Source of the DNA: a virus
Length of the DNA: 20,682 nt
Virus record (IMG/VR): IMGVR_UViG_3300020204_004736
Location: 1-20,682 of that record
Strand: one strand, 5' to 3'
In this document: positions 4,967 to 20,493 of the stretch, one piece after another
Numbering within the stretch: the first letter of the stretch is position 1
Layout of the letters: the number at the start of each line of letters is the position of its first letter
Translations under genes and position numbers: made by a program
The notes under the pieces: model-generated
Seen by the model: only the letters and a program-made list of their open reading frames with translations
Told to the model about the DNA's origin: nothing
Database searches by the model: none

Positions 4967-4998
4967 TAAAATTGTCAATACAAACGGAGCGTAAATAA

Positions 4999-5406: not shown

Positions 5407-5410
5407 AGCC

Positions 5411-5710
5411 ATGGACATGATTCAGTTTCCCCTAGCGTTTGACTCAACTGGGCTAAAAAAATTAAAAGAGGGAGAATTTGATTATTATTCACAGCTTTTG
5501 TCAATATCCATATTGACTGAACCACTGACGCACCCGATGACTCCGCAATTTGGCGCCTATGACCCAACACTAAGAACCGTAGACAAAGGTTTGTTTATTT
5601 TGAATGCGGCAAGATACGTTCCAGAGGTAAGAGTAACCGAGGTTGTTACACAACAAGATAATAATTCAATGATTAATGTTAAATTTTCTTTTGAAATAGA
5701 AGAGAGATAG
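5411..5710 (+). CDS. gp25/gpW-like baseplate wedge protein (99 aa)
   Basis: This starts four bases after the preceding stop. Length and layout match the gp25 family, the lysozyme-like but non-enzymatic wedge component that primes sheath assembly: SQLLSISILTEPLTHPMTPQFGA matches the family pattern of 'L-TepGeR-m-PeFG', followed by a helix and the terminal strand hairpin (ARYVPEVRVTEV, then SMINVKFSFEIE). The canonical EPR-type core motif is altered here to TEPLTHPMTPQFG, with His-Pro in place of Gly-Glu-Arg. The immediate downstream neighbour is the gpJ-like wedge protein, which is the invariant gene order of contractile tails. The call rests on family pattern plus synteny. Confidence 0.75.
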   Translation: MDMIQFPLAFDSTGLKKLKEGEFDYYSQLLSISILTEPLTHPMTPQFGAYDPTLRTVDKGLFILNAARYVPEVRVTEVVTQQDNNSMINVKFSFEIEER

Positions 5711-5712
5711 TC

Positions 5713-7179
5713 ATGCCTGCAGATTTTTCGGAATATGTAAATTTAAAAATATTTGATAAAGAGCCTGGTGATATTTATCGCGACGCTCTTGAGGTGGCAA
5801 GGCTTGCTTTGCCTGAATTCAATCTTCGAACAGGAACACCAGAAGACGCAATATTTCAAGCAATATCGTATATATCTTCTTTAAATATTGCCGCAATAAA
5901 CAGAATACCAGACAGGCTCATGGCCGGAATTGTTACACTGCTTGGATACTCTAGACAAGAAGCAGTTTTTGCCACTGTCGACGCAACGGTTACCCTAAAC
6001 ACATACGACGGAGGAGCAATACCTGCCGGAACTGTATTTACTTATAAATCTTCATTTGAAGATGAAATCATTGAAATTGGATTCCAAACAGTGGAACAGT
6101 TAATAATTGATGAAGTTGACCTAGAAATATCGCAAGATTTTCCGTCAGCCTCGACAACACTTGTTTGTTTACAGGGCGGAGTTATTCCACCACTAGTTGA
6201 TGATTTTTTACTTGAAATAAATTCATCTGGGTTGCCTATTCAGTCGTGTGTTACAAATAGCCCAAATAATTTCTTAAATGGAATAAACGCAGATACAGAC
6301 GAAGAATATCTTTCAAAGTCAACCACATATCTTCGCTCTCTTACTTCTGCAATAACAACATCAAGTCAGGTTGATTCATATTTGTTGACAAATTATCCGG
6401 ACGTAATAAGCAGGGTGCGGACATATGATTTGACAAAAAATGGATTACAGGAAGCAAAAAATATAACAGTAAATAGAGAAATAGGAATAAACAAGGTTTT
6501 TTTAACAAATAATGTGGCAACTGTTCAAACAGTTGATAGTCATTTGTATGTTGTTGGCGATGTTGTTGAAATCGAAGTTTTAAATAACTCAGCAAGTACA
6601 ACATTCAATGGCACTCATGAAATAATAGCAACAGGAGATACAACGTTTTCATTCAATAGAACAGCATCTAATACTGCAAGCACTACAGTAACCGCTTCTG
6701 CGTACACTGGCATTGACGCGACTGGACATGTTGCAATTTTTGCTTACGGGCTAAATGATTTCTTGACTTCTACACAAAAATCGCAAATTCTAAATGATGT
6801 CAGGGGAAAGTCTGTTGCTGGTTTGACGTTAAAAATTCTTGACCCAACTCTTGTAAATTTTGGCATAACTGGAACAGTAATTATTGACGAAACATACAAT
6901 AACGAAGAAGTTCAATTTATTGTTGAGAGAACACTTATCAACTATTTGAATCCAACTACGTTTCCCTTTAATACGAATAGAATACGCAAAAATCAATTGA
7001 TTTCTTTGATTGCTTCAATTCCTGGTGTTGTATATGTGGAAGACCTTGTTCTTTCTAGGAGCGGAACGGGATGGCTACCCCAACATGGCGATGACATATT
7101 GTTCTTAAACAAGGGAACTCTTCCAATAATTGCCGCAGAAGATATTGATTTAACTTTTGAAATTTGGGATTTGGAATAA
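5713..7179 (+). CDS. Baseplate wedge protein, gpJ / gp6-like (488 aa), with inserted fibre-type domain
   Basis: The ATG lies two bases after the gp25-like stop. N-terminal residues 20-115 carry the Baseplate_J signature: FNLRTGTPEDAIFQA, a helix with INRIPDRLMAGIVTLLGYSR and then the AVFATVDATVTL strand with GAIPAGTVF. Residues about 195-240 (GINADTDEEYLSKSTTYLRSL and TNYPDVISRVRTYD) are the second conserved block. Residues about 258-333 interrupt the family: NKVFLTNNVATVQTV-HLYVVGDVVEIEVLNNSASTTFNGTHEI is a beta-domain type normally repeated in tail fibres of environmental phages. The C-terminal domain resumes with LNDVRGKSVAGLTLKILDP and ends with the LISLIASIPGVVYVEDL strand pair. In the particle this protein forms the ring that links sheath and baseplate. 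The assignment is strong; the role of the insertion is unknown. Confidence 0.85.
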   Translation: MPADFSEYVNLKIFDKEPGDIYRDALEVARLALPEFNLRTGTPEDAIFQAISYISSLNIAAINRIPDRLMAGIVTLLGYSRQEAVFATVDATVTLNTYDGGAIPAGTVFTYKSSFEDEIIEIGFQTVEQLIIDEVDLEISQDFPSASTTLVCLQGGVIPPLVDDFLLEINSSGLPIQSCVTNSPNNFLNGINADTDEEYLSKSTTYLRSLTSAITTSSQVDSYLLTNYPDVISRVRTYDLTKNGLQEAKNITVNREIGINKVFLTNNVATVQTVDSHLYVVGDVVEIEVLNNSASTTFNGTHEIIATGDTTFSFNRTASNTASTTVTASAYTGIDATGHVAIFAYGLNDFLTSTQKSQILNDVRGKSVAGLTLKILDPTLVNFGITGTVIIDETYNNEEVQFIVERTLINYLNPTTFPFNTNRIRKNQLISLIASIPGVVYVEDLVLSRSGTGWLPQHGDDILFLNKGTLPIIAAEDIDLTFEIWDLE

Positions 7180-7181
7180 AT

Positions 7182-8408
7182 ATGCCAAAGGTTTTTAATC
7201 TTTTACCAAACGCTGACGCATTTTTAAAAATTGACGAATTTGGTATTCAAGTTCTTTTGTCTGATTTGCAAACCGGGTGGGAAGCCGTTGACTTACAGAA
7301 TCAGGAAATTACAACAGAGGTTCAATCTGAAAATTTTTCTGTTTCATCTAGATATGTTCTTGTAATTTATCCAAACACTATACAACCGATAAAAATACGA
7401 CTCGTTAGCACTCCTTTATATTTGAGCGACAATGGACGATTGTTGTCTTTTAATGCAAAATTGAAATGTTCTTCCCAAATAATCACGTCAACCAAATTGT
7501 ATATTGATAACAATTCCTCTGTAGACCCATACACACAATCTCTCTCAAGTGGTAAATACAACGCTATTCACTCACATACATCAATTGTCGAAGACGACGA
7601 GGATAATCACACAGCAACAATTGAAATAAATGTTTCTGGACACGGACAAAATCCAATATTTTTTACATGTCCACACTTAATACATGATTTGGCGTTTGCT
7701 AATAATCCAATGATTGGGTTAATTCGCAGATATTTGCCTGACTTTTATTGGGAGTTTGATTCGCAGTCTTCAAATCCAACTTTTCCATTTTTTAAATTTA
7801 TTGATGCATTGACACATGCCATTGGAGATACAAGACTCGAATATGGCTCGCTGTATGGGTTTGAACTAGACCAACTGCAAAATCCGGATTGGATTCCGGA
7901 ATATTGGACAAATAGTGTAATGACCGATATAAATTACGTTCGAGATGACTATATTCCTTGGCTTTCGCTTTTCACTGGTGAACATATTATACAAAATGTT
8001 CAAAACAAAAACGGTGATTATTATTTTGAAAATGCTGCCAGCATAAGAGATTTTATGGAATTTCAATTACGAACAAGAAGTTTTGGAAGCAATTCTGGAA
8101 CAAGAGGCTCAATTATTAATTCAATAAAGCAAGTTTTAATAAAAACAAAAAATAATCAAACAGCAACACGTGTTGTCGCCCTTACGCAAAATTTTGGTGG
8201 TGACCCGTTTGCGATAAGGGTTAAAACCCTTGTCAACGAGACGGACGATGTTACTGGCGTCGGTGAAAGCAGTTACCTGGTTCTATCGGCAGCAGAAAAA
8301 GCAAGACCCATGGGCTACAAAATTACTCATTCAGCAGAAGCACAATTTGTATTTACTCTTGACGATGCAACACTTGGGGTCCTAAATACCGGATTCCCGT
8401 TGGGTTAA
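7182..8408 (+). CDS. gpI-like baseplate / tail protein (408 aa)
   Basis: I place the start at the ATG at 7182, two bases after the gpJ-like stop; an in-frame TTG at 7164 would overlap that gene and is less likely. The middle and C-terminal parts look like P2 gpI-type proteins: MIGLIRRYLPDFYWEFD (about residues 175-195), DWIPEYWTNSV, DYIPWLSLFTGE, a helical block ENAASIRDFMEFQLRTRSFGSNSGTRGSI, and a closing RPMGYKITHSA-FTL strand pair shared by many gpI-like proteins. The first 170 residues are beta-rich and add length beyond P2 gpI (176 aa), as in many actinobacterial and environmental phages. Position between gpJ and the fibre is where gpI is always found; gpI links the wedge to the receptor-binding fibres. 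Confidence 0.65.
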   Translation: MPKVFNLLPNADAFLKIDEFGIQVLLSDLQTGWEAVDLQNQEITTEVQSENFSVSSRYVLVIYPNTIQPIKIRLVSTPLYLSDNGRLLSFNAKLKCSSQIITSTKLYIDNNSSVDPYTQSLSSGKYNAIHSHTSIVEDDEDNHTATIEINVSGHGQNPIFFTCPHLIHDLAFANNPMIGLIRRYLPDFYWEFDSQSSNPTFPFFKFIDALTHAIGDTRLEYGSLYGFELDQLQNPDWIPEYWTNSVMTDINYVRDDYIPWLSLFTGEHIIQNVQNKNGDYYFENAASIRDFMEFQLRTRSFGSNSGTRGSIINSIKQVLIKTKNNQTATRVVALTQNFGGDPFAIRVKTLVNETDDVTGVGESSYLVLSAAEKARPMGYKITHSAEAQFVFTLDDATLGVLNTGFPLG

Positions 8409-8441
8409 TCGCATGAATAGTAAAATGCATAAGGAGAAACT

Positions 8442-9467
8442 ATGCCATCTTTAGGTATCAAATTATTCCTTCCGGGGGACACCCTGCCCGCAGAAGAGTT
8501 AAATGGCTATCTCATGAATCAGGTTGTAGCCGTTTACAACACTCCTGCGGCCCGTGATTCGGCGTATGGTGATGGTGTTCCCGTTTCTACCGGTGGCTCG
8601 GGGAAGCCAGCACTATCACTGGGTATGTTGTGTTTTGTAAAATTTGAATCAGACGGAACAACCCCTCGCAACACAATTCAATTTTATGACGGGTCCGCAT
8701 GGCAGGATTCGGAACAATTTGTTGTTAGCGACGGCACTATTACAACTGCAAAACTTGCTGCCAACTCAGTAACTTCAGACAAAATTGCACCAGGAACAGT
8801 AATTGCGGCGGACATAGCTGCTGGAACGATAACCGAAACAGAGATTGCAAACAGTGCTGTAGCTTCTGCGAAAATCGCAAATGACGCAGTAACCACAGTA
8901 AAGATTGCTGATGCTAATGTAACCACGGCAAAGATTGCTGATTCCAACATAACCACAGAAAAGATTGCTGATGCCAATGTAACCACAGTAAAGATTGCTG
9001 ATGCCAATGTAACCACAGTAAAGATTGCTGATGCCAATGTAACCACGGCGAAGATTGCGGACGAGGCCGTAACATCAGCAAAAATTGCAGACGGAACCAT
9101 CGTCAATGCTGACATAAGCGCAAACGCCGCTATAGAAATTGGCAAGATTGCTGACGCAACGATTAATACTAAGACTGCAAATTATTCACTTGTGCTGACC
9201 GATAAGAATAAATTCATCAAAATGAATTCCTCAAGCAGTAGAACTATTACAGTTCCCTTGCAAGCCACTGTGGATTTTCCTGAAGGTGCACAAATTCATC
9301 TTGTTAGGTATGGGTCGGGTACCTTGGAAATCGTAGGAGAGTCTAACGCGGTAAATATTTACGCTACGCCAGGAAAATTCTTGAGAGCACGGTATTCTTC
9401 GGCAACACTTTTGAAATGTGTCGATACGAACGCTTGGCTGCTGATAGGCGATTTGAGCGAGTCGTGA
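8442..9467 (+). CDS. Tail fibre / receptor-binding-type protein with decapeptide repeat shaft (341 aa)
   Basis: AAGGAG at 8431-8436 lies five bases upstream of the ATG, the first strong Shine-Dalgarno in the window. Residues 1-99 are the usual attachment head of such fibres (AEELNGYLMNQVVAVY; RNTIQFYDGSAWQD). Residues 100-229 are thirteen decapeptide repeats with consensus VTTxKIADAN, which would form a regular beta-structured shaft. Residues about 235-341 are a C-terminal beta domain (TITVPLQATVDFPEGAQIHLV, ending in NAWLLIGDLSES), as seen at the tips of many marine and actinobacterial phage fibres. The stop codon overlaps the GTG start of the next gene, which lies in the -1 frame, so a frameshifted longer product is possible. 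Inferred role: adsorption to the host surface. Confidence 0.75.
   Translation: MPSLGIKLFLPGDTLPAEELNGYLMNQVVAVYNTPAARDSAYGDGVPVSTGGSGKPALSLGMLCFVKFESDGTTPRNTIQFYDGSAWQDSEQFVVSDGTITTAKLAANSVTSDKIAPGTVIAADIAAGTITETEIANSAVASAKIANDAVTTVKIADANVTTAKIADSNITTEKIADANVTTVKIADANVTTVKIADANVTTAKIADEAVTSAKIADGTIVNADISANAAIEIGKIADATINTKTANYSLVLTDKNKFIKMNSSSSRTITVPLQATVDFPEGAQIHLVRYGSGTLEIVGESNAVNIYATPGKFLRARYSSATLLKCVDTNAWLLIGDLSES
8889..9068 (+). repeat. Six in-frame 30-bp tandem repeats in the fibre shaft
   Basis: Near-identical 30-base units begin at 8889, 8919, 8949, 8979, 9009 and 9039, each starting with GTAACCACAG or a close variant and encoding VTTxKIADxN. The two central units at 8979 and 9009 are identical base for base. 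Weaker copies extend the protein-level repeat on both sides (8739-9128). The array can expand or contract by slippage or recombination without breaking the frame. Confidence 0.9.
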
Positions 9468-10282
9468 TTCCTGGCAATACATCCAGTGGCGGCAAGTATG
9501 TTGGTCCCCCAACAAATATAAGTGCCTCTGCTGGAAACGCTCAGGTAACCGTAAGTTTCACTCCACCCGTATACGACGGCAAGGGTGTCGCCACGTATGT
9601 GGTCACAGCAAGCCCTGGCGGAGCAACAGCATCGGGTAGCGCATCGCCGATAACCGTTGCTGGTCTTTCCAATGGAACGTCTTATACGTTTATCGTGACG
9701 ACGATAAGTGGCTATGGGATTAACAGTTCATCTGGAGCATCCAGTGCCGTTATTCCGCAGGCACCGGCACCACCGCCTCCCCCACCGCCACCACCGCCAC
9801 CACAGCCCCCCCAGGTACCGTGCGACAACAAACCATGCGGTTGCAACTATTCTCCAGGTCCAGAGAAATGTGCTCCATGCATGGGAACCACACCGTGTGG
9901 TGGTCCTGCAAATGGGTGCACCTGCGACGGACAAGCCTCATATTTCTACTATTGCCAATATTGCCCAACCGGGGAGGGCGGGTACCATGGGGCATTTAGG
10001 GAGGGCTGTTGTGGCTATTCCAGCGGTGTAACTCCTCCGGTACCGCCGCCGCAACCGCCGCCGCCACCGCCGCCAGGGCCGCCAAGCTGTGCAACGTGTC
10101 TTGCCGCTGTCCCATGCGCAATGCCGCACTTTGTTTACACACAAAGAGTAGTCAACCACACGAACTGCTCCTTCTTCGCGGGTATCTGCAATGGAGGGTG
10201 CACTGGTAGTTATGATGAATACGTCCATCCTTGCGGATATGGCTGTTGCGCAAGTCTGGCACTAAATGCATCATGTGCGTAA
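9464..10282 (+). CDS. Fibronectin III domain + polyproline linkers + two cysteine-rich modules (272 aa)
   Basis: I choose the GTG at 9464, which overlaps the fibre stop as GTGA (translational coupling); an ATG at 9416 in the same frame would overlap the fibre by 52 bases. Residues about 15-100 are a fibronectin type III domain (PTNISASAGNAQVTVSFTPP through GLSNGTSYTFIVTT). Then come an 11-proline run (103-113), cysteine-rich module 1 (about 119-183, 12 Cys), a second Pro-rich linker with a 7-proline run (198-204), and cysteine-rich module 2 (about 209-272, 10 Cys). Each module has an adjacent Cys pair in the pattern GCC. FN3 domains on phages are surface decorations that bind carbohydrates weakly; the Cys modules are unrecognised and may be disulfide-bonded in the particle. 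The frame relation to the fibre (-1) also permits a fusion by frameshifting. Codon use is richer in G/C than in the baseplate genes. Confidence 0.7.
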   Translation: MIPGNTSSGGKYVGPPTNISASAGNAQVTVSFTPPVYDGKGVATYVVTASPGGATASGSASPITVAGLSNGTSYTFIVTTISGYGINSSSGASSAVIPQAPAPPPPPPPPPPPQPPQVPCDNKPCGCNYSPGPEKCAPCMGTTPCGGPANGCTCDGQASYFYYCQYCPTGEGGYHGAFREGCCGYSSGVTPPVPPPQPPPPPPPGPPSCATCLAAVPCAMPHFVYTQRVVNHTNCSFFAGICNGGCTGSYDEYVHPCGYGCCASLALNASCA

Positions 10283-10328
10283 CACCAAGATATGTTAGAG
10301 TTTGGCGTAGACAAACGGAGGAAAACAA

Positions 10329-10631
10329 ATGAGCGATGAATCAATTCCGGCATTTTTCTCACCCATGCGCATAACCGAGCCGGCACCGACCGATACACCG
10401 AGTGCGGCCCCTGAGGCTTTTAGGACGTTTGCATTCGTCGTTGATGGGGAGGTTGGCTTCAAGATGTCAATATCTGCGCATCCTGATTTTCTGCCAAGCA
10501 TTGCCTGCTTGTCGTCAAATCCGACAATCATAGAATTGCACGGGGACGACAAGGTAATGGTTACGCCGGCATGGAAAAATACCATGGGTTGGACATTTGA
10601 CGGCGAAAACTTTCATCCACCAGTTGAATAA
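10329..10631 (+). CDS. Small protein of unknown function (100 aa)
   Basis: A perfect GGAGG at 10317-10321, seven bases before the ATG, indicates strong translation. The N-terminal 30 residues are Pro/Ala/Thr-rich (TEPAPTDTPSAAPEA) and likely unstructured. Residues about 33-100 alternate hydrophobic strands and polar turns (FRTFAFVVDGEVGFKMSIS, PTIIEL, GWTFDGENFHPP), suggesting a small beta domain. There is no signal peptide, membrane segment or known motif. Its place between the FN3/Cys-rich virion protein and the oxygenase block suggests an accessory virion or modification-related role, but I cannot name a family. Confidence 0.6.
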   Translation: MSDESIPAFFSPMRITEPAPTDTPSAAPEAFRTFAFVVDGEVGFKMSISAHPDFLPSIACLSSNPTIIELHGDDKVMVTPAWKNTMGWTFDGENFHPPVE

Positions 10632-10645
10632 TTTTGGAGGAAACG

Positions 10646-10702
10646 GTGTTCGCAACGATTGCAAACGAAAACGCCGCCTTTGACCAAGGCGAAGGAGAAT
10701 AA
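10646..10702 (+). CDS. Possible 18-residue micro-ORF with strong ribosome binding site
   Basis: GGAGG at 10636-10640 stands five bases before a GTG that opens an 18-codon frame ending in TAA at 10700-10702 (peptide MFATIANENAAFDQGEGE if GTG is read as Met). The Shine-Dalgarno has no other start codon in range. The Shine-Dalgarno of the next gene lies inside this micro-ORF, so its translation could act as a leader that keeps the downstream start open. It may instead be the remnant of a longer gene. Evidence is limited to the ribosome binding site and spacing. Confidence 0.3.
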   Translation: MFATIANENAAFDQGEGE

Positions 10703-10706
10703 TTGC

Positions 10707-10952
10707 ATGAGCGCATGGGAAGAGTACAAGAAGCGTCGAGCTGCCCAGTTGGAGAACGGAGCATCGGTGAGACCGACAGACATGTTGGACAAGGAAAATT
10801 ACACCACCGATGATGTTGCCAAGCGTCGCTATGAGATATGCGAGCAGTGTCCAAGCCTCATCAAATTGACCAAGCAATGCAAAGAGTGCGGATGCTTTAT
10901 GAAACTAAAGACAAAACTAATTCATTCCTCGTGTCCGCTGGGTAAATGGTGA
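10707..10952 (+). CDS. Small zinc-ribbon-like protein (81 aa)
   Basis: AAGGAG at 10692-10697 precedes the ATG by nine bases; an in-frame TTG at 10659 lacks a good site and is rejected. The N-terminal 40 residues are charged and helical (MSAWEEYKKRRAAQLENG). The rest has six cysteines in the order C45-x2-C48 ... C58-x2-C61-x-C63 ... C76 (CEQC, CKECGC, SSCPLGKW), a pattern of small zinc-ribbon proteins that recur in aquatic myophages near structural and hydroxylase genes (from general knowledge, similar to the DUF6171 type). Its stop overlaps the start of the next oxygenase gene by one base, so the two are co-translated. Role unknown: a small adaptor or nucleic-acid/protein-binding factor is plausible. 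Confidence 0.65.
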   Translation: MSAWEEYKKRRAAQLENGASVRPTDMLDKENYTTDDVAKRRYEICEQCPSLIKLTKQCKECGCFMKLKTKLIHSSCPLGKW

Positions 10953-11689
10953 TGTTTGATTTTTCTGATAAAACGAGTTTTCAATACAAGAATTTTGAGT
11001 TCTTTGTAAATCAAGAAACAAACGAGCCACGCCCCCTCCACACCATGGACAGAAGTGGGTTTCCGTATCAATTTGTTGATGAGCCAGAAAGCCCAAAGAT
11101 ATTCACCGAGGACAATTTGCTGTCAAAAGATGAATGTGATTATTTGATTTGGCTTGCCACAGAATCGGAAGACTGGTGGATACCGACAATACCTTTTTGG
11201 GAAGATAGAAATTGTCCACTTTTTGGGATGTTGGAGAATAGACCAAGTGCTGGTTTGGTTTCGCAAAAAATTGCTCTGGATATCCACGACAGAATCAAAC
11301 GAACCATATCAGAATGGTTCGGTCAAGAAGTATACGTGGACCAAATTGGAATAGTGAGATGGCCAGTTGGAAGTTGGCAAATGACACACATTGACCAAGT
11401 GGAGGGGTTAGACAGGGTTGCTGGAAGTGTTGTTTTCCTCAACGATGATTACACGGGCGGTAAACCTTTCTACCCCTACTACGGGTTACAGGTTCAGCCA
11501 AAAACCGGGATGTTGTATGCGCATGACGCCGGTCATTCCCACCTTCACGGTGTCACCAAAATTTCCGGAACTACGAGATACACAATCTCTTCAACATGGA
11601 CCAAGAACCCGGCGCTTGAGCGGTACAAGGAGTTGATGGCATTGGCAAGGAATAAAGTCGCATCAGTGCAGTTCCACGACATGTCCTAG
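10952..11689 (+). CDS. Fe(II)/2-oxoglutarate-dependent oxygenase, prolyl-4-hydroxylase-like (245 aa)
   Basis: This is a double-stranded beta-helix oxygenase with all expected residues: H146 and D148 in MTHIDQ (first iron ligands), H199 in HLHGV (distal ligand) and R209 in GTTRYTISSTW (2OG carboxylate). The N-terminal helix LLSKDECDYLIWLATES is the usual start of the prolyl-4-hydroxylase domain, preceded by about 45 residues of unassigned sequence. GSVVFLNDDYTGGKPFYPYYG is the conserved strand pair between the ligands. I choose the ATG at 10952, which shares its A with the TGA of the zinc-ribbon gene; ATG 10946 and GTG 10949 are also possible. Substrate unknown; the nearby polyproline protein is a candidate. 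Enzyme class is well supported. Confidence 0.85.
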   Translation: MFDFSDKTSFQYKNFEFFVNQETNEPRPLHTMDRSGFPYQFVDEPESPKIFTEDNLLSKDECDYLIWLATESEDWWIPTIPFWEDRNCPLFGMLENRPSAGLVSQKIALDIHDRIKRTISEWFGQEVYVDQIGIVRWPVGSWQMTHIDQVEGLDRVAGSVVFLNDDYTGGKPFYPYYGLQVQPKTGMLYAHDAGHSHLHGVTKISGTTRYTISSTWTKNPALERYKELMALARNKVASVQFHDMS

Positions 11690-11698: not shown

Positions 11699-12316
11699 AT
11701 GGAAAAATCCAATATTCAACGCAAAGACAATTTCCTCAGCGCAGAAGAATGCGAATACATTTCGTGGATACTGAATGCAGACGAGCAATGGAGTTACATA
11801 TCAATCCCATCCCCAAGTGTCAAATTTGCTGAATGGTTCACCACACTTCAGTACAAGAGATATTCATCCCATGCACTGCAGCGACTTTCCATGCAGATAT
11901 ATCGCAAAACACAGGACTTTGTCAATAAGGGTGGCGATTCCCAATTGCACCTTTCGGCCATGTTTGCTGGTGTTCGAGAAGTTGACACGGTCGCACCACT
12001 TACCCCAGTCGGGTCATATTTTTCACCAATGTCAACTGTGGCAATTGTGTGGCTGGGTGGTCATACCACGAGTGAGAGTGTGTATCTGTCTCTAAACGGG
12101 AACAAAGTAGAAGTAAGACCAGGGGGGATAATTGCTTATCAGCCAGAGCGGCTTACAGATGTATTGAAGGTGCCAGCAATGAATCAAAATTTCATTATTT
12201 CCTCGTGGAGCACGAACGAGTTGTCCACTGAACTCACCCAACAACTTGACAAGATGAAAAGTTACCTAGACGCATGCTGCAACGAAGAGCAACCAGTAGT
12301 GAAACCCCAGGAGTAA
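11699..12316 (+). CDS. Degenerate 2OG-oxygenase paralogue lacking all catalytic residues (205 aa)
   Basis: This aligns by eye to the preceding oxygenase over its whole core: FLSAEECEYISWI matches LLSKDECDYLIWL; PVGSYFSPMST matches PVGSWQMTHID; GGIIAYQ...FIISSW matches GMLYAH...TISSTW. At the four functional positions it has M111 for His, T113 for Asp, T153 for the distal His and Q163 for the Arg. It therefore keeps the beta-helix framework but cannot bind iron or 2OG in the usual way. The frame is intact with no stop or frameshift, so it is more likely a repurposed pseudoenzyme than a decaying pseudogene. A CTAG plus nine bases precede the ATG, as at two - strand genes; no Shine-Dalgarno is visible. 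It could be a binding or regulatory partner of the neighbouring enzymes. The C-terminus is a charged helix. Confidence 0.7.
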   Translation: MEKSNIQRKDNFLSAEECEYISWILNADEQWSYISIPSPSVKFAEWFTTLQYKRYSSHALQRLSMQIYRKTQDFVNKGGDSQLHLSAMFAGVREVDTVAPLTPVGSYFSPMSTVAIVWLGGHTTSESVYLSLNGNKVEVRPGGIIAYQPERLTDVLKVPAMNQNFIISSWSTNELSTELTQQLDKMKSYLDACCNEEQPVVKPQE

Positions 12317-12325: not shown

Positions 12326-13363
12326 ATGAACATTTATTCCGCGTCAACCCCTCGCATTGGCAGAGAAGAAGTATTGGAAATCGATGGATTTGACGACGTT
12401 CATCTTGGTGGTGGTGTTGTTCTTTTTAGAAATGCGGTTGACGTAAAACGTGATGTCATGGCACCGTGGATTGACGCTCACGCGCAAGCCGCACATGAAC
12501 AACGCTGGAAATATCACAAAGACCTTGATGGGCAGACTTATGCCGTGAATGAAGATGGAAATAAGTTTTCGCTGGAGCAAATTGAGGAGGTTCCGGTTCG
12601 TGTACTGCAGCCAGTAACAGAATCGACTGAGCCAGAAATAGCAGATATATTCAGAAACTGGGAAGACCAAATATACAAATGCCTACTAAAATACTCATAC
12701 AGATTTCCGTTTGTGGTGGGAACGATTTGGTGGCGTAGTCGAGGCCATGTCCTTCGTTATGACAAGGGAGACTACCTGGGCGTTCACAACGACAACGACT
12801 CCAATTACAGGGCAACTGGCGGAGAAAGATTCATACCAAAGGGACAGGTACAGATGCGCCAAGTGGTAGCAGTGATGCTGTACATAAATGACTGTGTTGA
12901 TTCTCCGGAAAAGATTGATGGAACCAATTACACGGGAGGTGAGCTGTTTTTCCCGTACCTAGATATCACCCATCAAGCAAAAACTGGTGACATTGTTATT
13001 TTTCCTTGCAATTTTATGGCTACACATGGCGTACACACCGTGACCGACGGGCAAAGGTACGGATATCTTGAGTTTTATTCACAAGGAGTTTCTCATCCTG
13101 AAGTGTTGATAAATGTTAGTGAGCCGGAAGACTGTGATGATTGGTGTAGGCCGCACTGGATTGATAATTTTTATGACGATTTTGCAATCTACTCGAAGCA
13201 TGCAGAATTTGGAAAAGACAATTTTGGGATTATGCAGACCAACCCGGTTTATCAAAACCGCGCACTAGAAGGCGACAACGGCTTAATAAAACCATATTAT
13301 TCGTCAAAAGTAAAAGAGGACACACTTAGCCGAGGAAAAGAATACCCGGCTGAACTTCTTTAA
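12326..13363 (+). CDS. Fe(II)/2OG-dependent oxygenase, P4H-like, with C-terminal extension (345 aa)
   Basis: The catalytic set is present: H154 and D156 in GVHNDNDSNY, H234 in ATHGVHTV and R244 in QRYGYLEFYSQG. Upstream are YKCLLKYSYRFPFVVGTIWWRSRGH, split here as CLLKYSYRFP and IWWRSRGHVLRYD, features shared with two - strand genes of the block (starts at 17517 and 16712). It differs from them by about 75 extra C-terminal residues, a Trp/His/Asp/Tyr-rich segment (DDWCRPHWIDNFYDDF) of unknown role. GGAG at about 12309 and a purine-rich stretch precede the ATG by a suitable distance. The stop TAA overlaps the stop of the convergent PhyH-like gene. Substrate unknown. Confidence 0.85.
   Translation: MNIYSASTPRIGREEVLEIDGFDDVHLGGGVVLFRNAVDVKRDVMAPWIDAHAQAAHEQRWKYHKDLDGQTYAVNEDGNKFSLEQIEEVPVRVLQPVTESTEPEIADIFRNWEDQIYKCLLKYSYRFPFVVGTIWWRSRGHVLRYDKGDYLGVHNDNDSNYRATGGERFIPKGQVQMRQVVAVMLYINDCVDSPEKIDGTNYTGGELFFPYLDITHQAKTGDIVIFPCNFMATHGVHTVTDGQRYGYLEFYSQGVSHPEVLINVSEPEDCDDWCRPHWIDNFYDDFAIYSKHAEFGKDNFGIMQTNPVYQNRALEGDNGLIKPYYSSKVKEDTLSRGKEYPAELL
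13360..13363. other. Overlapping convergent stop codons (TTAA)
   Basis: The + strand TAA at 13361-13363 and the - strand TAA at 13362-13360 share three bases. The two operons meet with no intergenic DNA and no stem-loop terminator visible at the junction. Confidence 0.9.
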
Positions 13364-14148
13364 TTCATATTACTTAGATATAAATTGTCGCCTCGTTTAG
13401 ATTTGACATAAACGGTTTGGCTAACTTTATTCATCTCCTCGTCATTCACTACTGAAAAGTGAAAAAATAATGAGTTTCTATAAGTTGATTTATCGGTTAC
13501 CCAATCTTCTTGCGGCAAGTCTGATTGTTTCCCACGGTGTATTGCCAAGCCGTGCCAAATTATAAAGTCGCCCTTTTTGGCTTTAAAGTTGTACGTTTTT
13601 GTATTGAGTCTTGCCATGTTTTCGGCAACAAGTTTTTCGTAGTACTCGTAGCAAACACGCGGATTATCCATCAAATTTTTATAGTTGATAATTGATGGGT
13701 CGGTGTGCAATGTGTGGGAATAAGGGACAACCTCAAATGAACCGCAATTTGGACCAAAATCTTCTAGGGCTATTATTGCGCCATAGTAATGGTCTCCGTT
13801 TGGCACAAGACCACCGTACCTATGATTGGATTGTTCAATATCATTGTTAAAGTCTCTATGCCACTGTATGTTGGAGGAGCCAATTCTTGCTTCGACCATA
13901 TGCACTGAAAATTTACGGTTTATCGACTTGGCATATTCATCTAACATTTGCGGATGTATCAAATCGACTATTAGTTCGTCTTGCAAATATTCTGACCGGG
14001 ATGGCAAATATGACTTCCACGGCTCAAGAATTGACGATGTAACTTCTTTATACTGTGTATTAAATCTATCTATTAGCGATATGTCTATTGCGTTTTCAAT
14101 TACTTGAAATCCGAATTGCTGTATTGCTTCATGCGATATTTTGCTCAT
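13360..14148 (-). CDS. Phytanoyl-CoA dioxygenase (PhyH)-like Fe(II)/2OG oxygenase (262 aa)
   Basis: GGAGG (14162-14158 on the - strand) sits nine bases before the ATG at 14148, so the in-frame ATG at 14178 is rejected. PhyH-family residues are present: W96-H97-R98-D99 (iron ligands H97, D99), GAIIALEDFGPNCGSFEVVPYSHTLH after it (PhyH core: 'a-l-d--~~NG~l-vvPGSH'), W198-H199-G-L-A-I-H204-R-G (distal ligand H204) and R224 in YRNSLFFHFS (2OG contact). PhyH-type enzymes hydroxylate small molecules, lipids or antibiotics rather than protein prolines, so this member suggests a metabolite or lipid/glycan substrate. The gene overlaps the upstream dehydrogenase-like gene by 20 bases. The product length is in the family range (about 250-300 aa). 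Confidence 0.85.
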   Translation of the reverse strand: MSKISHEAIQQFGFQVIENAIDISLIDRFNTQYKEVTSSILEPWKSYLPSRSEYLQDELIVDLIHPQMLDEYAKSINRKFSVHMVEARIGSSNIQWHRDFNNDIEQSNHRYGGLVPNGDHYYGAIIALEDFGPNCGSFEVVPYSHTLHTDPSIINYKNLMDNPRVCYEYYEKLVAENMARLNTKTYNFKAKKGDFIIWHGLAIHRGKQSDLPQEDWVTDKSTYRNSLFFHFSVVNDEEMNKVSQTVYVKSKRGDNLYLSNMN

Positions 14149-14995
14149 GCTGCAACACCTCCGGGTCGTGCCAAACATTTCTATCTTCTGGGCGCTGTTT
14201 GTGCAAGTGCTTATTCGCGGTTAGATTTTTGCAGAATCTATTTATCCCGTGGATGAACCCTAGATGTTCCGGGAAACCTAATTCTGCGCAAATGTTTCTG
14301 AGTTTCCCATCATTAATTTGTTGCCAAATTTCTATCATCGCCTCAGCGCCAGTTCTACCGTCTACATAAAACTTATCCGCAATGAGGTCTAATGACGACT
14401 GCTCCCATGCCATGATTTTGGGAGTTTTCTTGTCTTGGTATAGGGGCTCATTCTCGGCTGCTTTTTCAGCAACAGCCATATATCGATTTACGATTTTAGC
14501 TTGAGTTTCAGAATATTGAACACTCCATATTGTGTTTTGGAATATTCCATAAACGTCATTTGCCCTATCCCCGGACACAAGCATTAAGTGGGTGCCAGGC
14601 TTTGTTTCTCGAATATTATCAAATGGGTAGCCCCTAATCGCGCCCTCGACGTAATTGTCTGTGAGATTTTGGATAATTGTTCGCCAATGGTTTTCTTCAT
14701 CTTCACCATTTAGAGAATTTAGGTCTATATATAAACCCTCGAATTTTGCATCCATAAAAAGGACTTTGGGCGTATCAAATGCGATGCTCCCTGTGCCAAC
14801 ACAAATCACAGTTTTGCAAATCTGACTGATGTCATTAAGATTGTTCACTTTTGTAAAACCACATTTGAGTGCCGAAGCAATCGTTTCATCTGTTCTTTCA
14901 TAAGCAGGGAAAAATATTTTATGACCTACTGCTTGGAGTGATATGCCAATGCTCCTACCCATTTTCCCTGGCGAAATTATCCCGATGTTTTCCAT
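14129..14995 (-). CDS. NAD(P)-dependent beta-hydroxyacid-dehydrogenase-like protein (288 aa)
   Basis: The N-terminus is a Rossmann fold with IGIISPGKMGRSIGISL (residues 4-20) followed by GHKIFFP, resembling 6-phosphogluconate/3-hydroxyisobutyrate dehydrogenase relatives of the DUF1932 type, which start with 'IGiIgpGeMG'. Further blocks fit: VICVGTG at 63-69, LYIDLNSLNG at 88-97 (substrate-loop DxN), YVEGAIRGYPFD at 115-126 and HLMLVSGDRA at 136-145, with SETQAKIVNRYMAVAEKAAE supplying a candidate catalytic Lys (about 167). The C-terminal helical domain is short and somewhat unlike the family. It is translated just upstream of, and overlaps, the PhyH-like gene, so the two may act on the same compound: one hydroxylates, one oxidises the hydroxyl. 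That pairing is inference. Nucleotide preference (NAD or NADP) cannot be read. Confidence 0.65.
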   Translation of the reverse strand: MENIGIISPGKMGRSIGISLQAVGHKIFFPAYERTDETIASALKCGFTKVNNLNDISQICKTVICVGTGSIAFDTPKVLFMDAKFEGLYIDLNSLNGEDEENHWRTIIQNLTDNYVEGAIRGYPFDNIRETKPGTHLMLVSGDRANDVYGIFQNTIWSVQYSETQAKIVNRYMAVAEKAAENEPLYQDKKTPKIMAWEQSSLDLIADKFYVDGRTGAEAMIEIWQQINDGKLRNICAELGFPEHLGFIHGINRFCKNLTANKHLHKQRPEDRNVWHDPEVLQHEQNIA

Positions 14996-15004
14996 GGCGT
15001 GCTG

Positions 15005-15814
15005 CTACCTTTCAGGGATGCTTCCAATTAGCGCGAGCGGCTGGTACTGAACCCCAACCTCTTGCGAGAATTTACCGAAGTCTATATACGAAGACGAATT
15101 AAGCCAAGACGTTTTTATCTCTTCTTTGGTTGACGGCAATTTTGGGCTTGCTCCAGGTATATCGCCATGACCATACCAAGACAAATATGCGTATCTTGTT
15201 CCGTTTGTTACTGGGTAAATTTCGTGGCACCCAATAAAGTTTGATGGATATACCAGAATTCGTCCGTAAATTCCTGGAACGGAAATACCCCAAGGTCTAA
15301 ATCCGGTTTGTCCGCCAGTGAATTCATCATTGAGCGTAATCGTGCAGGTTAACGTATTGCACACTGGTTGCTGATTCAACGGCGTAAAGTTGTCATTTCC
15401 GTATGGAATCGATGCATCAGAATGTGGACCCATTGAATGGCCTTCGTCGTACCGAATCATATACCCACGAGTTTTCCATCTAATTGATGTCATTGCGGTT
15501 GGAAATTGTCTGCAATACATAACGACGGCATCGTATATGGCTTTTTCTAGGCTTGAAATTGTTGCCACATTTTCTTGCGATATTCCATTGAACATTGTGT
15601 TTACATAGCGCAATGGAGCAATATCACGATGCTGCTGCTGGTCATGCTCATATCCCCCGCTATTCAAAACTCTGCCATGTTCATCTGTCTCATAGCCTTC
15701 TGGGGCGACATTCTGTTCAATGTCAGAAATCAGTCGCTGAACATCAGTGCGACTTGCCTCAATCAATCCATCAAACATCATTATCCCATTGCCAAGATGA
15801 GCTATTTTGCGCAT
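15005..15814 (-). CDS. Fe(II)/2OG-dependent oxygenase, P4H-like (269 aa)
   Basis: Catalytic residues are complete: H131 and D133 in GPHSDAS, H197 in IGCHEIYPV and R207 in TRYAYLSWYGHG. MYCRQFP (99-105) and IRWKTRGYMIRYDEGHSMG (111-129) precede the first ligands as in the related genes of this block, and LNDEFTGGQTGF is the strand pair between ligands. The start ATG is one base after the stop of the upstream oxygenase (TGAcATG), so translation is coupled. The N-terminal region (LGNGIMMFDGLIEASRTDV) matches the 'gGi-lFknai' start shared by its neighbours. The C-terminal 50 residues end with a short tail without motif. Enzyme class is clear, substrate unknown. Confidence 0.85.
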   Translation of the reverse strand: MRKIAHLGNGIMMFDGLIEASRTDVQRLISDIEQNVAPEGYETDEHGRVLNSGGYEHDQQQHRDIAPLRYVNTMFNGISQENVATISSLEKAIYDAVVMYCRQFPTAMTSIRWKTRGYMIRYDEGHSMGPHSDASIPYGNDNFTPLNQQPVCNTLTCTITLNDEFTGGQTGFRPWGISVPGIYGRILVYPSNFIGCHEIYPVTNGTRYAYLSWYGHGDIPGASPKLPSTKEEIKTSWLNSSSYIDFGKFSQEVGVQYQPLALIGSIPER

Positions 15815-15815
15815 G

Positions 15816-16712
15816 TCAGAATCCGGCTCGAACCAGCGCGAAAGCTAGCGAGCTGCGGTCGTAGTTGTTTATTTCAAGATACTCGCGGAAATCTTCCCTA
15901 AGTGTAGGCATATAAACGTTTGTCGCTACTTGGGCTAGGTCTGGTTCTTTTATTGGGTCGACGATTGCTTCATTGTATTGAATATTGGGACTCCCATGTG
16001 AATACCATCCAAGATAGCTGTAGCGGGAACCACGCGTTACGGCGGTCACCTGATGTGAAGCAATAAAATTGGATGGGAACATTAAAATGTCTCCCTTTTT
16101 GGGCAAATAAGTTATCTCCAAACCATCAAATACGTGGTGGCCACCACTAAAAGAATTATTAGTGACAACATCTATGTCGTCTGTGCAATCGTTGAAATAC
16201 ACAATACACGACACAGTGTTTCTGGTGGCCAGTTGGTCTGATGGCTCAGGGAACCCATAAACATAGTCAGCACTTGTATCGGAATGCACGCCTAGGTACT
16301 GAGAGTTTTGTGCTTCATATCGAACAATATGTCCTTTCACTTTCCACCAAATATTTTTATATGCAAGAGGAAATTTTGCCAGATATTGAAGCAAGTATGT
16401 ATCTTTTGATTTCTCTAGAACATTTAAAAACTCTTTGATTTGTGGGTCTTTTCTTTGATGTGCAGAAGAGCACCTCCCCGGCATTGCCATGAAAGTGTCA
16501 TCGCTAAATATGTAGCCGCTTTTATTTATTAGCGCTGGTTTTCCTGTTTCTGGATGTACGGTTGGCGTGTACATATCCGCGACATCCTCGCCAACCAATT
16601 TCTCTACTGTGCGATATGTCCATTCCCAGTCGAGAGTTATTGCGTTTTTGAATAAACATACACCAGACCCAAGATGCTCCATGGCTGAGCTATTAAACTC
16701 TGTAGTGGTCAT
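15816..16712 (-). CDS. Fe(II)/2OG-dependent oxygenase, P4H-like (298 aa)
   Basis: AGGAG at 16725-16721 (- strand) is eight bases before the ATG, which lies inside the 3' end of the upstream gene (20-base overlap). Ligands: H143 and D145 in LGVHSDTSADY; H220 in IASHQVTAV; R230 in SRYSYLGWYSHG. LGSGVCLFKNAI at the N-terminus and IWWKVKGHIVRYEAQ before the first ligand match the paralogues at 12326 and 16693. VYFNDCTDDIDVVTNNSFSGGHHVFDG is the inter-ligand segment, longer than in the 269-residue neighbour. Distinctive feature: residues 50-85 contain a Pro/Cys/His-rich insert (HPETGKPALINKSG, then MPGRCSSAH). Substrate unknown. Confidence 0.85.
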   Translation of the reverse strand: MTTTEFNSSAMEHLGSGVCLFKNAITLDWEWTYRTVEKLVGEDVADMYTPTVHPETGKPALINKSGYIFSDDTFMAMPGRCSSAHQRKDPQIKEFLNVLEKSKDTYLLQYLAKFPLAYKNIWWKVKGHIVRYEAQNSQYLGVHSDTSADYVYGFPEPSDQLATRNTVSCIVYFNDCTDDIDVVTNNSFSGGHHVFDGLEITYLPKKGDILMFPSNFIASHQVTAVTRGSRYSYLGWYSHGSPNIQYNEAIVDPIKEPDLAQVATNVYMPTLREDFREYLEINNYDRSSLAFALVRAGF

Positions 16713-17517
16713 TGCTTCTACTCCTGTGCATTACAAGATGTGGTGGCGGTGTTTCCCCGTATTTGGCGTTTATGTACTTATCATAGTCTCCCAGAACGCT
16801 CTGGAGCCAAACCTGACCGCCATTGGAACTAGCGGCGGCCTGCGGGTCTATTCCGTGCTTTGCGTCTTCTGAGCCCTGAGCGAACCAAGCAAGATACGAA
16901 TATCTCTTACCTTTGGTTACCTCGTTTATTTGGTGAGCAGCCGTATAGTTGGCTGGAAAAAATACAGCGTCCCCCGCTGAGGGAATGATATCAACATCAG
17001 CATATGGAAAATACATTGACCCGCCATCAAAGTCACTACCTGCTGTATTGAGAAAAATGATGGCACTCACAACATTTCTTGTTGCGTGTTGTTCGTCTGG
17101 AACATTTCCATATTTGTAATTTACGTCATTATCGCAGTGCAATCCAAGAGAGCCACCAGCAGAATATGACAAGATATGTCCGACACTTTTCCACCACAGG
17201 CACGGTAGAAGAGCTGGAAATATTTCTAAGTATTTCAATAAGCAGTCATACAGCACTGCTTCGTATTCGTTATACCAGTCGTCTCCAAGTTTCTGCAAAC
17301 GCAACGGTGCTCGACGCATATCGTCTAAGCCGTATATGAACCCGCCCTCATTGATTGCGTGGATTGGGTTCCCTGATTCATCGTAAACAATCGTGAAGTT
17401 TGATTCAATTGCTTCCTGCTCAAGTCTCAACAACCTGTCTTGCATCTCGGCAAAATTAACCCTGTGTGCATTCTTGAATGTGACTATTCCATACCCGTGA
17501 TTTATTATTTCATTCAT
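16693..17517 (-). CDS. Fe(II)/2OG-dependent oxygenase, P4H-like (274 aa)
   Basis: The ATG forms an ATGA overlap with the stop of the upstream peroxidase-like gene. Ligands: H127 and D129 in LGLHCDNDVNY; H195 in AAHQINEV; R205 in KRYSYLAWFAQG. DCLLKYLEIFP and LWWKSVGHILSYSAGG precede the first ligands and make this the closest relative in the window of the + strand gene at 12326 (which has CLLKYSYRFP, IWWRSRGHVLRYD and GVHNDNDSNY). RNVVSAIIFLNTAGSDFDGGSMYFPYAD is the inter-ligand segment. Hence the same family was duplicated or acquired on both strands. The C-terminus (HVVMHRSRSND-like tail) is short and basic. Substrate unknown. Confidence 0.85.
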   Translation of the reverse strand: MNEIINHGYGIVTFKNAHRVNFAEMQDRLLRLEQEAIESNFTIVYDESGNPIHAINEGGFIYGLDDMRRAPLRLQKLGDDWYNEYEAVLYDCLLKYLEIFPALLPCLWWKSVGHILSYSAGGSLGLHCDNDVNYKYGNVPDEQHATRNVVSAIIFLNTAGSDFDGGSMYFPYADVDIIPSAGDAVFFPANYTAAHQINEVTKGKRYSYLAWFAQGSEDAKHGIDPQAAASSNGGQVWLQSVLGDYDKYINAKYGETPPPHLVMHRSRSNDHYRV

Positions 17518-18459: not shown

Positions 18460-19077
18460 CTAATTAACTATGGGCCTTTCTTGGTAGATTGACCAGTCTG
18501 CATTTGGCGCAATATTTGGCTTGACAGGGCTTAGATTCATGCTTATCACAATTCTTGGGATGCTTGAATTGTGCCTCGTGGTCATGTGATTTAGGTATGA
18601 ATTAAAGATTGTAAGCATGCCTTCTTTTGGCTCAATCATCACGGAACTATTCATATATCCACACCAGTTTGCAGAAAATACCAGTGCGGCAGAGCCATCC
18701 GGAACCTGTGGATAATACGATACTGAAAAATACTCTTCCGGATATATGTGGTGTTTTTTGTGATGGCAGTGCGCCATAACGCTTTTACCTTTATCAAGAA
18801 GTATTGCCCATAATTCGTCAATTTGATGGGCGCGTCCACCAACCCTGTCCACTGCGGCAATCACTGCTTTTTCGAGTTTTTCAAACTCTTTGCTTCTTGG
18901 GCATACGGTGTCCTCGTATTGTATAAATCCGCTCCAGTTATACCGCTCATCACCAGACGGCACCGCATATCCATATTCTTGTATTTCATGTACAAGCTTT
19001 TTGTTGTCAATATCATTTAAAATTGTTGTAAATATACCCTGTGTTATGAGGGGTGTGTATGCAAGCTCTTCACTCAT
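18460..19077 (-). CDS. Putative 2OG-Fe(II) oxygenase, PF13759/TIGR02466-like (205 aa)
   Basis: The centre reads MAHCHHKKHH...EEYFSVSYYPQVPDGSAALVF, matching the family in which an HxH/HxD-type motif is followed by a 'sGvyYv--P-gsg-l-F' strand pair. The candidate ligands are H103 and H105 (or H106), H164 in YLNHMTTRHN, and R175 in PRIVISMNL (the family's R-s-s-N ending). The N-terminal half (LWAILLDKGKSV before the motif) fits the 'wani---G--~~~H-H' pattern. The start overlaps the end of the upstream oxygenase by eight bases (ATGAGTGA), so expression is coupled. Whether the His-rich cluster binds iron as in related enzymes is inference, because the acidic ligand is not obvious. Function in this family is unknown in general. 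Confidence 0.6.
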   Translation of the reverse strand: MSEELAYTPLITQGIFTTILNDIDNKKLVHEIQEYGYAVPSGDERYNWSGFIQYEDTVCPRSKEFEKLEKAVIAAVDRVGGRAHQIDELWAILLDKGKSVMAHCHHKKHHIYPEEYFSVSYYPQVPDGSAALVFSANWCGYMNSSVMIEPKEGMLTIFNSYLNHMTTRHNSSIPRIVISMNLSPVKPNIAPNADWSIYQERPIVN

Positions 19078-19741
19078 AGAAAAACTTATCTAACCCAAGT
19101 GCGGTCGGTGGGTTGTTTTTGTGCCACACATTGATAACCATTACTTCGCGTTTTCCGGACTTTGCTGGAGTCGTTGAATGAAGAACATGGCCTGCATCGA
19201 AATTAATAAACCTATTGCCCCTGTACGCAATTCTTTCTCTTTGCTCAATTGGAGAAATGTTGCGGTCAATGCTGTCTCGCTCAAGTATCATTTTTTGTCC
19301 GTCAACCAATACGGACTGATGTATCTCTAGAAATCCACCATCTTTATTATCGCAACCGTACCAAATTCCACCAGCATGTGGTCCAGAAAACGTCTTGGAA
19401 TCCGCGTACAAAAACGTATCTTCGTCGACGTGGACATCCAAATATTGGCCGGGAAGATACGTCCTGGTCCAATATTCAAATCCCAATATCTCATCTTGTC
19501 GCGCTGGGAGTCTATTTTCCCATAGCTCCTTGATTACTCTTTTTTTTAGAGTGTTTGCTTCGGATAACCACCACCCATCCCAAAACATATACGGCGCAAA
19601 ACAACTAGCTTTTTCATCGTGGTAGGAATTTAGCTCTGTTGCTATTTTCTCGCCTGGTCCCATCGATTCAGGGAAAAATAAGCAGTCCCCAAGCACATCA
19701 AGATAGAGATTCCTGCTGATTGCATCGTCCAATATCTGCAT
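19070..19741 (-). CDS. Fe(II)/2OG-dependent oxygenase, divergent P4H-like (223 aa)
   Basis: Ligands can be assigned as H104 and D106 in YLDVHVDEDT, H188 (or H185) in FDAGHVLHSTTPA and R198 in GKREVMVINVW. The preceding FEYWTRTYLPGQ is the usual strand before the motif. The rest of the protein is unlike its neighbours: an unusual acidic/aromatic inter-ligand segment (GPHAGGIWYGCDNKDGGFLEIHQS) and a Trp-rich N-terminal part (MFWDGWWLSEAN). The start is eight bases after the stop of the upstream Asp/Asn-hydroxylase-like gene, and no strong Shine-Dalgarno is visible. The double-stranded beta-helix class is likely; subfamily and substrate are unknown. Confidence 0.75.
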   Translation of the reverse strand: MQILDDAISRNLYLDVLGDCLFFPESMGPGEKIATELNSYHDEKASCFAPYMFWDGWWLSEANTLKKRVIKELWENRLPARQDEILGFEYWTRTYLPGQYLDVHVDEDTFLYADSKTFSGPHAGGIWYGCDNKDGGFLEIHQSVLVDGQKMILERDSIDRNISPIEQRERIAYRGNRFINFDAGHVLHSTTPAKSGKREVMVINVWHKNNPPTALGLDKFFYE

Positions 19742-19749: not shown

Positions 19750-20493
19750 TTACAACCCTTCGATATCTGGAAAGCGAGCCCTGAGATACGTCATATCAAA
19801 GTCGAAAAACAAAACTAATCTATCTTTGTCTCCGTTGTGTCTGACTGAATGCATATATGGGCGACCGTCTTTAAATGCTAGTATTTTTCCTTCTTCCCAA
19901 GTTCTGCTTTTATCCCCTACTGTCAAAATACATTTTGGGTCATTGATTAATGACAAATGACATCTCATATGTTCATCTGCTCCAAAGTGTGGATTGATTG
20001 TTGTCCCTGGCTTAACCAAGCTGTAGAAAGCTCCAGAACATTGCCCCTCGTCTGCAAACTCATTAACTATTTTATTGAATGTTGGGAATTTTTTTCGAGA
20101 ATCTTCGAGATGTTCTGGAATGGTTCTTTTTGTTTTCCATTTAAGCACTTTACGAATGTAATTAGTATTTGCCCATTGAACATTAATGTCTTCTTTTGGC
20201 ATTGTTCCAGCTGCAAACCCCTCCCATACGCCGTCATGCAATTTTTCATTTCCCTCCCTGGCGCTGTCGGGTGTTGTGGCTTCGCGACTCGACTCTTTAT
20301 CTATTTGTCCGCGGTTAGAAATGGCGAATTTGGGAACCGAAAACCTGGTAATGCTATCAGTCGTATTGTTGTTGTTGTGAGAATCCTGTACAAGGTATTC
20401 ATCCCTTATTTTTATCCAATTTTTTTCAAGTTCAATACATACGGGTATTGTTGAGATTATCTCATCCCAAAACTCTGGAGTTTTATTTTTCAT
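19750..20493 (-). CDS. Aspartyl/asparaginyl beta-hydroxylase-like Fe(II)/2OG oxygenase (247 aa)
   Basis: Residues about 150-232 match the Asp/Asn hydroxylase family (PF05118): FYSLVKPGTTINPHFGADEH (H169), the R177-C-H179 'RcHLsL' motif, CILTVGDKSRTWEEGKILAF with the family's W-eG--~-F, and YMHSVRHNGDKDRLVLFFDF with H215 and R225. Iron in this family is held by two His without the acidic residue, which fits the HFG instead of HxD. The N-terminal 140 residues have no visible motif and include a low-complexity Asn/Thr/Ser segment (40-80) that may be disordered. Family members hydroxylate Asp/Asn in EGF-like domains or related peptides in animals and unknown substrates in bacteria. It is upstream in the - strand operon after a truncated gene at the edge. 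TGGGCTAG-N9-ATG precedes the start. Confidence 0.8.
   Translation of the reverse strand: MKNKTPEFWDEIISTIPVCIELEKNWIKIRDEYLVQDSHNNNNTTDSITRFSVPKFAISNRGQIDKESSREATTPDSAREGNEKLHDGVWEGFAAGTMPKEDINVQWANTNYIRKVLKWKTKRTIPEHLEDSRKKFPTFNKIVNEFADEGQCSGAFYSLVKPGTTINPHFGADEHMRCHLSLINDPKCILTVGDKSRTWEEGKILAFKDGRPYMHSVRHNGDKDRLVLFFDFDMTYLRARFPDIEGL

Follow-up and report, generated by a model that had tools for sequence, protein, structure and literature searches.

The 20,682-base virus record IMGVR_UViG_3300020204_004736 of IMG/VR, analysed here over its full length as the window and probably a fragment of a genome, carries a fibre-tip gene with polyproline linkers, a small gene, a DUF6171 gene and the gene for OX1, a prolyl-hydroxylase-like 2-oxoglutarate (2OG)/Fe(II) oxygenase. 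The best explanation for this region is a modular cassette for modifying fibre tips, here in its proline form. From sequence comparisons, we consider it likely that OX1, with DUF6171 holding it to the tip protein, hydroxylates prolines in the polyproline stalks while the fibre is being assembled or earlier. The fibre would bear a tip protein built of an FN3 domain, a low-complexity linker and Cys-rich modules; DUF6171, itself small and Cys-rich, would act as the docking adaptor; and the enzyme encoded directly behind it would be matched to the linker, a prolyl 4-hydroxylase (P4H)-like 2OG oxygenase to proline and a GT60-type N-acetylglucosamine (GlcNAc) transferase to threonine. The hydroxylated stalk could then be a stiff, protease-resistant rod presenting the Cys-rich modules to the host, a guess based on the known chemistry of polyproline helices. 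The cassette and the gene preceding it are organized as follows.

8442..9467, plus strand: tail-fibre protein (PHROG tail fibre, E 1.6e-31)
9464..10282, plus strand: fibre-tip protein with FN3 domain, polyproline linkers and Cys-rich modules, the proposed substrate (fn3, E 5e-9)
9770..9802, plus strand: 11-proline run (tip residues 103-113, mixed codons)
10055..10075, plus strand: 7-proline run (tip residues 198-204, mixed codons)
10329..10631, plus strand: small conserved gene of the family typical of position -1 (100 amino acids)
10707..10952, plus strand: DUF6171, small six-Cys protein, proposed docking adaptor (Pfam, E 9e-7)
10946..11689, plus strand: OX1, prolyl-hydroxylase-like 2OG/Fe(II) oxygenase (active-site residues, fold and profile)

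The cassette recurs in unrelated viruses

The arrangement of a fibre gene followed by a tip-protein gene, a small gene, DUF6171 and an oxygenase is repeated across dozens of unrelated viral contigs, and independent viruses with a fibre, a Pro/Cys-rich protein, the small gene, DUF6171 and an oxygenase were found by the tip-protein and OX1 scans. Gene calls were mechanical, thresholds were simple counts and many contigs are fragmentary. A scan with DUF6171 only was chosen so that neither linker nor enzyme influenced which loci were picked; at least 591 DUF6171 loci were confirmed in IMG/VR. Including earlier loci, the DUF6171-selected set comprised 90 loci, 61 after dereplication and 59 with enough context. 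A Pro-rich protein, defined by at least 9 Pro per 24 amino acids, lay within three genes upstream of DUF6171 in 39/59 loci, and a 2OG oxygenase lay within three genes downstream in 39/59. Both were present in 33 loci, the Pro-rich protein only in 6, the oxygenase only in 6 and neither in 14 (Fisher p 7e-5); as background, 9 Pro per 24 amino acids was reached by 2/484 genes farther away in related loci. When OX1 was instead the criterion for choosing loci (identity of 40% or more, 2.5 kb or more of upstream sequence, dereplicated), a DUF6171 gene was found in 19/19 and a Pro-rich upstream protein in 18/19. The sole exception, L114, has 8 Pro in 24 with APAPAP, one residue under the cut-off. Within 55 dereplicated loci selected by the FN3 tip family, DUF6171 followed 29/33 FN3 proteins with a Pro-rich tail and 0/22 without one (Fisher p 1e-11); scored for an oxygenase or GT60 gene instead of DUF6171, the same table read 28/5/0/22. 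Co-occurrence of fibre and oxygenase genes in relatives, put forward as a check in the initial annotation, was strongly positive for loci picked by DUF6171, OX1 or FN3.

The linkers of these tips include P-runs, PFFPPYFPP, PTPTPT, PVPV, APAP, VTPAVTPA, PVTPPVTPP and SFPTPSFP, which have proline in common and little else. A single open reading frame (ORF) encodes both the linker and the C-terminal domain of the fibre in eight or more kinds of relatives (L057, L146, L022-25, L060, L030, L320, L091 and L066). A collagen-like substrate or fibre was considered and rejected, with no Gly-X-Y repeat seen in the listed linkers (P-runs, PFFPP, TP, VP, AP). The L031 tip protein (4006-5970) has a Hint/intein-looking segment (CIVGSTLISTPNGFVKAEDLKVGDVV) at its end, past the linker. 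No cellular relatives were found in 84,980 species genomes scanned with strict DUF6171 and OX1 patterns, and the tip-protein relative of L063 had no match among phage isolates.

Linker residue follows enzyme type

Several DUF6171 loci without an oxygenase carry a PF11397 (GT60) gene in its position. GT60 enzymes are polypeptide GlcNAc-transferases acting on Thr (mucins) or hydroxyproline (Skp1) (PMC8724618), and the linkers at these several loci are Thr runs. The Thr prediction was written down before the GT60 scan and is the sole test whose criterion was fixed in advance: among 33 new dereplicated loci with DUF6171 from that scan, a run of 5 or more Thr is present in 25, and of the eight without one, three show shorter repeats of the ATT or TTTTAAP kind. 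The residue comparison covered 104 dereplicated loci. The 46 with a 2OG oxygenase only had medians of 12/24 Pro and 8/24 Thr, and the 32 with GT60 only had 5/24 Pro and 15/24 Thr. A Pro density of at least 8/24 was reached at 44/46 2OG loci versus 5/32 GT60 loci (p 1e-13), and a run of at least 5 Thr at 1/46 versus 22/32 (p 9e-11). Merging DUF6171 at 65% identity left both contrasts in place (Pro-rich, 9/9 versus 1/8, p 4e-4; Thr run, p 2e-3). Behind the same FN3 junction (...SVTPVAP, linker, C) we found polyP in L120, PFFPP in L186, PVTPP in L207 and polyT in L268. The enzyme calls were confirmed by Pfam for 44/45 oxygenases and 29/29 GT60 relatives; the latter, all outside the window, match PF11397 with a best E value of 5e-40, and their D91-x-H93 (DxH motif) is invariant. 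A Pro linker with an oxygenase and a Thr linker with GT60 is the pattern expected from an enzyme-substrate pair. A tree-based count of independent enzyme/linker swaps was dropped, with too few resolved branches.

DUF6171 is fused to both enzyme types

The DUF6171 protein of the window (PF19668; 81 amino acids, E 9e-7, 29.6 bits against a cut-off of 27) has the pattern C-x2-C-x9-C-x2-C-x-C-x12-C, with invariant Cys columns. DUF6171 is fused in frame to an OX1-type P4H in L123, through a 17-amino-acid linker, and to GT60 in L084 and L086. That two unrelated enzymes are each found fused to DUF6171 is best accounted for if it supplies something both require, namely attachment to the tip protein, and we infer from these sequences that DUF6171 is the docking adaptor. 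In the AlphaFold2 (AF2) model of the L123 fusion, the DUF6171 half alone (residues 1-70) had a confident fold; the oxygenase half was spoiled because the alignment was mixed, and its structure search was not used. Stenotrophomonas phage Moby and Synechococcus phage QB2 have DUF6171 in different gene surroundings. No literature naming DUF6171 was found, with partial coverage.

GT61 or HtrL/YibB-family genes, which may represent additional cassette enzymes, lie directly behind DUF6171 or a DUF6171-GT60 fusion (L045, 6238-7131; L086, 7208-7996). Radical SAM-SPASM genes (peptide modifiers) lie near DUF6171, together with GT60, in L043 (7811-8851) and L058 (2120-3154).

OX1 resembles prolyl hydroxylases

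The OX1 active site is intact: H148-x-D150, H201 and R211, the HxD...H iron ligands and the basic 2OG anchor, are invariant among its eight closest relatives, and H148, D150 and H201 are at least 90% conserved across 45 cassette oxygenases. Collagen-type P4Hs differ in having Lys at the anchor position corresponding to Arg211. The AF2 model of OX1 (predicted local distance difference test, 83; predicted TM score, 0.84) retrieved almost exclusively prolyl hydroxylases among its 50 best PDB matches, with a TM score to the target of ~0.6. Human prolyl 3-hydroxylase 1 (P3H1), Bacillus anthracis P4H, PBCV-1 P4H, PHD2 and Chlamydomonas P4H-1 ranked ahead of nearly all other 2OG enzymes. Searched against the PDB, the OX1 profile matched P4Hs alone at E <0.01 (B. 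anthracis P4H, 4e-10), and a profile of all cassette oxygenases matched first B. anthracis P4H (1.5e-18) and P3H1 (7e-14). By comparison of its predicted structure and by profile search, OX1 is placed among the prolyl hydroxylases. Among phage isolates its only matches were weak ones, to cyanophage "leprecan" proteins.

Alternative explanations

Several observations weigh against hydroxylation of the stalk by OX1. The evidence base is genomic throughout. OX1 stays below the Pfam PF13640 cut-off (21.8 versus 27 bits), so that its assignment to a family is based on profile and fold. Nine further oxygenase-family genes of the window have no assigned substrate. The Pro-rich FN3 tips of L196 and L200 have no DUF6171 or enzyme nearby, and those of L213 and L219 adjoin an oxygenase without DUF6171. 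The DUF6171 tree is poorly resolved, with supported branches forcing two enzyme switches and the best tree 14, so the number of independent enzyme/linker swaps is uncertain. Hitchhiking is one alternative: accessory genes would accumulate at fibre loci, the oxygenases would have unrelated targets such as host proteins, lipids or nucleic acid, and the Pro stalk would be a stiff spacer. In its favour, ten oxygenase-family genes exceed the need of one linker, five of ten distant OX relatives have no Pro-rich neighbour, and cyanophage 2OG oxygenase copies adjoin UvsY, also without one. The regular occurrence of oxygenases without a Pro-rich virion protein, which the initial annotation had named as contrary evidence, is indeed true of many generic phage 2OG oxygenases, but false for the DUF6171-linked kind. 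We regard hitchhiking as improbable, since the linker residue matches the enzyme in two directions, as confirmed by the hold-out test, DUF6171 is fused to both enzyme types, and the cassette accompanies 0/22 FN3 proteins without a linker.

The modified residues might instead lie in the Cys-rich modules, for instance through the Asp/Asn hydroxylation known from EGF-like domains, or DUF6171 itself might be a substrate akin to ribosomally synthesized and posttranslationally modified peptides. Such modules are present in most tip proteins, an Asp/Asn-hydroxylase-fold enzyme is encoded at 19750, and radical SAM-SPASM enzymes adjoin DUF6171 in the two loci given above. However, the modules occur with both enzyme types and thus cannot account for an enzyme type that follows the linker residue; DUF6171 is strongly conserved and fused to the enzymes, and OX1 groups with prolyl hydroxylases, all of which makes a target outside the linker less probable still than hitchhiking. 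An extension compatible with proline hydroxylation by OX1 is that this phage would go on to glycosylate the hydroxyprolines, as happens in Skp1 and in the wall proteins of plants and algae. An oxygenase and GT60 occur together, with linkers rich in P and T, in L142, L320, L325 and L091, and a GT61 gene follows DUF6171 in the Pro-linker virus L045. Against this, the 20 genes scanned in the window, itself a fragment, included no glycosyltransferase, and no PF11397 was found in the Pro-linker contigs L045 and L063 (138 and 114 kb). Glycosylation in this virus, to which we give a small chance, is the part of the initial proposal that the window did not bear out, while the idea that a Pro-rich fibre is the oxygenase substrate gained from co-occurrence, residue matching and the OX1 fold and profile.

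Comparison with known systems

B. anthracis P4H (3ITQ, 5HV4, 5V7Y) is the solved structure nearest to OX1 by profile and among the best by fold, with HxD...H ligands and ~22% identity in the structural alignment; it modifies EF-Tu, to judge by the title of 5V7Y. Unlike OX1, it is a free-standing cellular enzyme with no DUF6171 or fibre gene adjoining. PBCV-1 P4H (5C5T) is, like OX1, virus encoded and a structural match, but this chlorovirus infects a eukaryotic alga. We know of no linked substrate gene for it. The enzyme and its viral peptide substrates were characterised by Eriksson et al. 1999, as cited in PMC9301287 and PMC7019647; no hydroxyproline was found in the particles of PBCV-1, according to the statement for which PMC7019647 cites its ref. 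162. The Skp1 pathway of Dictyostelium and Toxoplasma (PhyA and Gnt1) employs the same two enzyme types, P4H and GT60 GlcNAc-transferase. There they act sequentially on one proline of a cytosolic protein, whereas in the phage cassette they are mostly alternatives behind one adaptor, following the linker residue.

Plant and algal hydroxyproline-rich glycoproteins (extensins and arabinogalactan proteins) share with the phage tips Pro-rich repeats (PPPP, AP, TP, VP, SP) beside folded modules. The phage tips differ in also having PFFPPYFPP repeats and a fibre-tip context, and no hydroxyproline glycosyltransferase of plant families was found. Virion glycosylation by the mycobacteriophages Che8, Corndog and Myrna resembles the cassette in that phage-encoded enzymes modify the phage's own virion proteins. 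To our knowledge, those glycosyltransferases come with no DUF6171 or Pro-rich linkers, and no hydroxylation has been described. The mycobacteriophage work is that of Freeman 2023, as cited in PMC12363180.

Other genes of the window

Positions 1-9467 hold baseplate, fibre and related genes; the baseplate J-like protein is nearest to Gordonia phages (~30% identity), and the fibre gene has tandem IADANVTT-type repeats at 8850-9080. The tip ORF starts with GTG at 9464, overlaps the stop of the fibre gene by 4 bases and encodes 272 amino acids with 47 Pro and 22 Cys, the fn3 domain spanning residues 15-93. The FN3 protein with 11- and 7-Pro runs between Cys-rich modules, described in the initial annotation, is a real ORF. 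The runs use CCA, CCG, CCT and CCC and, being in mixed codons, are not a simple DNA repeat. Two more contigs, L002 and L003, are 100% identical to the window in this region, and with both other copies identical, selection on the tip gene was uninformative. The product of 10329-10631 had no match in a Pfam search; its family sits at position -1 in 24 of ~60 loci, and a GNAT-like gene replaces it in seven (L008, 9248-9775, and relatives). The P4H-like series begins, as first noted, two small genes after the tip gene, with OX1, whose start overlaps the end of the DUF6171 gene by 7 bases. Nine further 2OG-oxygenase-family genes follow up to 20493, ten altogether, with a Rossmann-type gene and a glutathione peroxidase gene interspersed.

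11699..12316, plus strand: OX2, related to OX1, without HxD/H/R; probable pseudo-enzyme (metal ligands lost)
12326..13363, plus strand: OX3, 2OG oxygenase (PF13640, E 9e-9)
13360..14145, minus strand: PhyH-family 2OG oxygenase (E 9e-12)
15005..15814, minus strand: OX4, 2OG oxygenase (PF13640)
15816..16712, minus strand: OX5, 2OG oxygenase (PF13640)
16693..17517, minus strand: OX6, 2OG oxygenase (PF13640)
18460..19077, minus strand: OX7, 2OG-FeII_Oxy_5/TIGR02466-like
19070..19741, minus strand: OX8, weak PF13640 match (E 0.005)
19750..20493, minus strand: Asp/Asn-hydroxylase-fold 2OG oxygenase, LpxO/OlsC-like (PF05118, E 1e-24)

OX3 to OX6 exceed the curated PF13640 cut-off, and the NCBIfam OlsC and LpxO matches of the last product stay below theirs. 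OX2 has lost the HxD, the distal His and the Arg. Two different viruses have such a dead OX1 paralogue next to an active copy (window, 11699-12316; L063, 6253-6825), which suggests a pseudo-enzyme partner. The minus-strand group at 13360-20493 comprises seven 2OG oxygenases, the Rossmann-type gene and the glutathione peroxidase. L088 has in common with it PhyH, the Rossmann gene, three oxygenases and the peroxidase, and L035 and L048 share oxygenases and the peroxidase.

Significance

P4H genes were among the most abundant auxiliary genes in a Baltic Sea virus survey, where their viral use "remains cryptic" (PMC9301287). The literature on phage hydroxyproline or P4H fibres, covered in part, gave no description of such fibres. 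The present work names an enzyme, a substrate and an adaptor for this use, with the Thr/GT60 version as a built-in control. There is a somewhat better than even case for an undescribed class of phage systems, in which DUF6171 would be a universal adaptor bringing residue-matched enzymes to low-complexity fibre-tip stalks to yield hydroxyproline-rich or mucin-like fibres; GT61, HtrL/YibB and radical SAM enzymes would then probably belong to it as well. That many uncultured aquatic viruses of bacteria encode a residue-suited enzyme right behind a Pro- or Thr-rich tip suggests chemical decoration of the phages' own fibres, much as plants and algae treat their cell-wall proteins. If so, DUF6171 would be a transferable module for directing hydroxylation or glycosylation to repeat proteins in bacteria, and phages would stand alongside plants, algae and protists as builders of decorated structural glycoprotein-like fibres.

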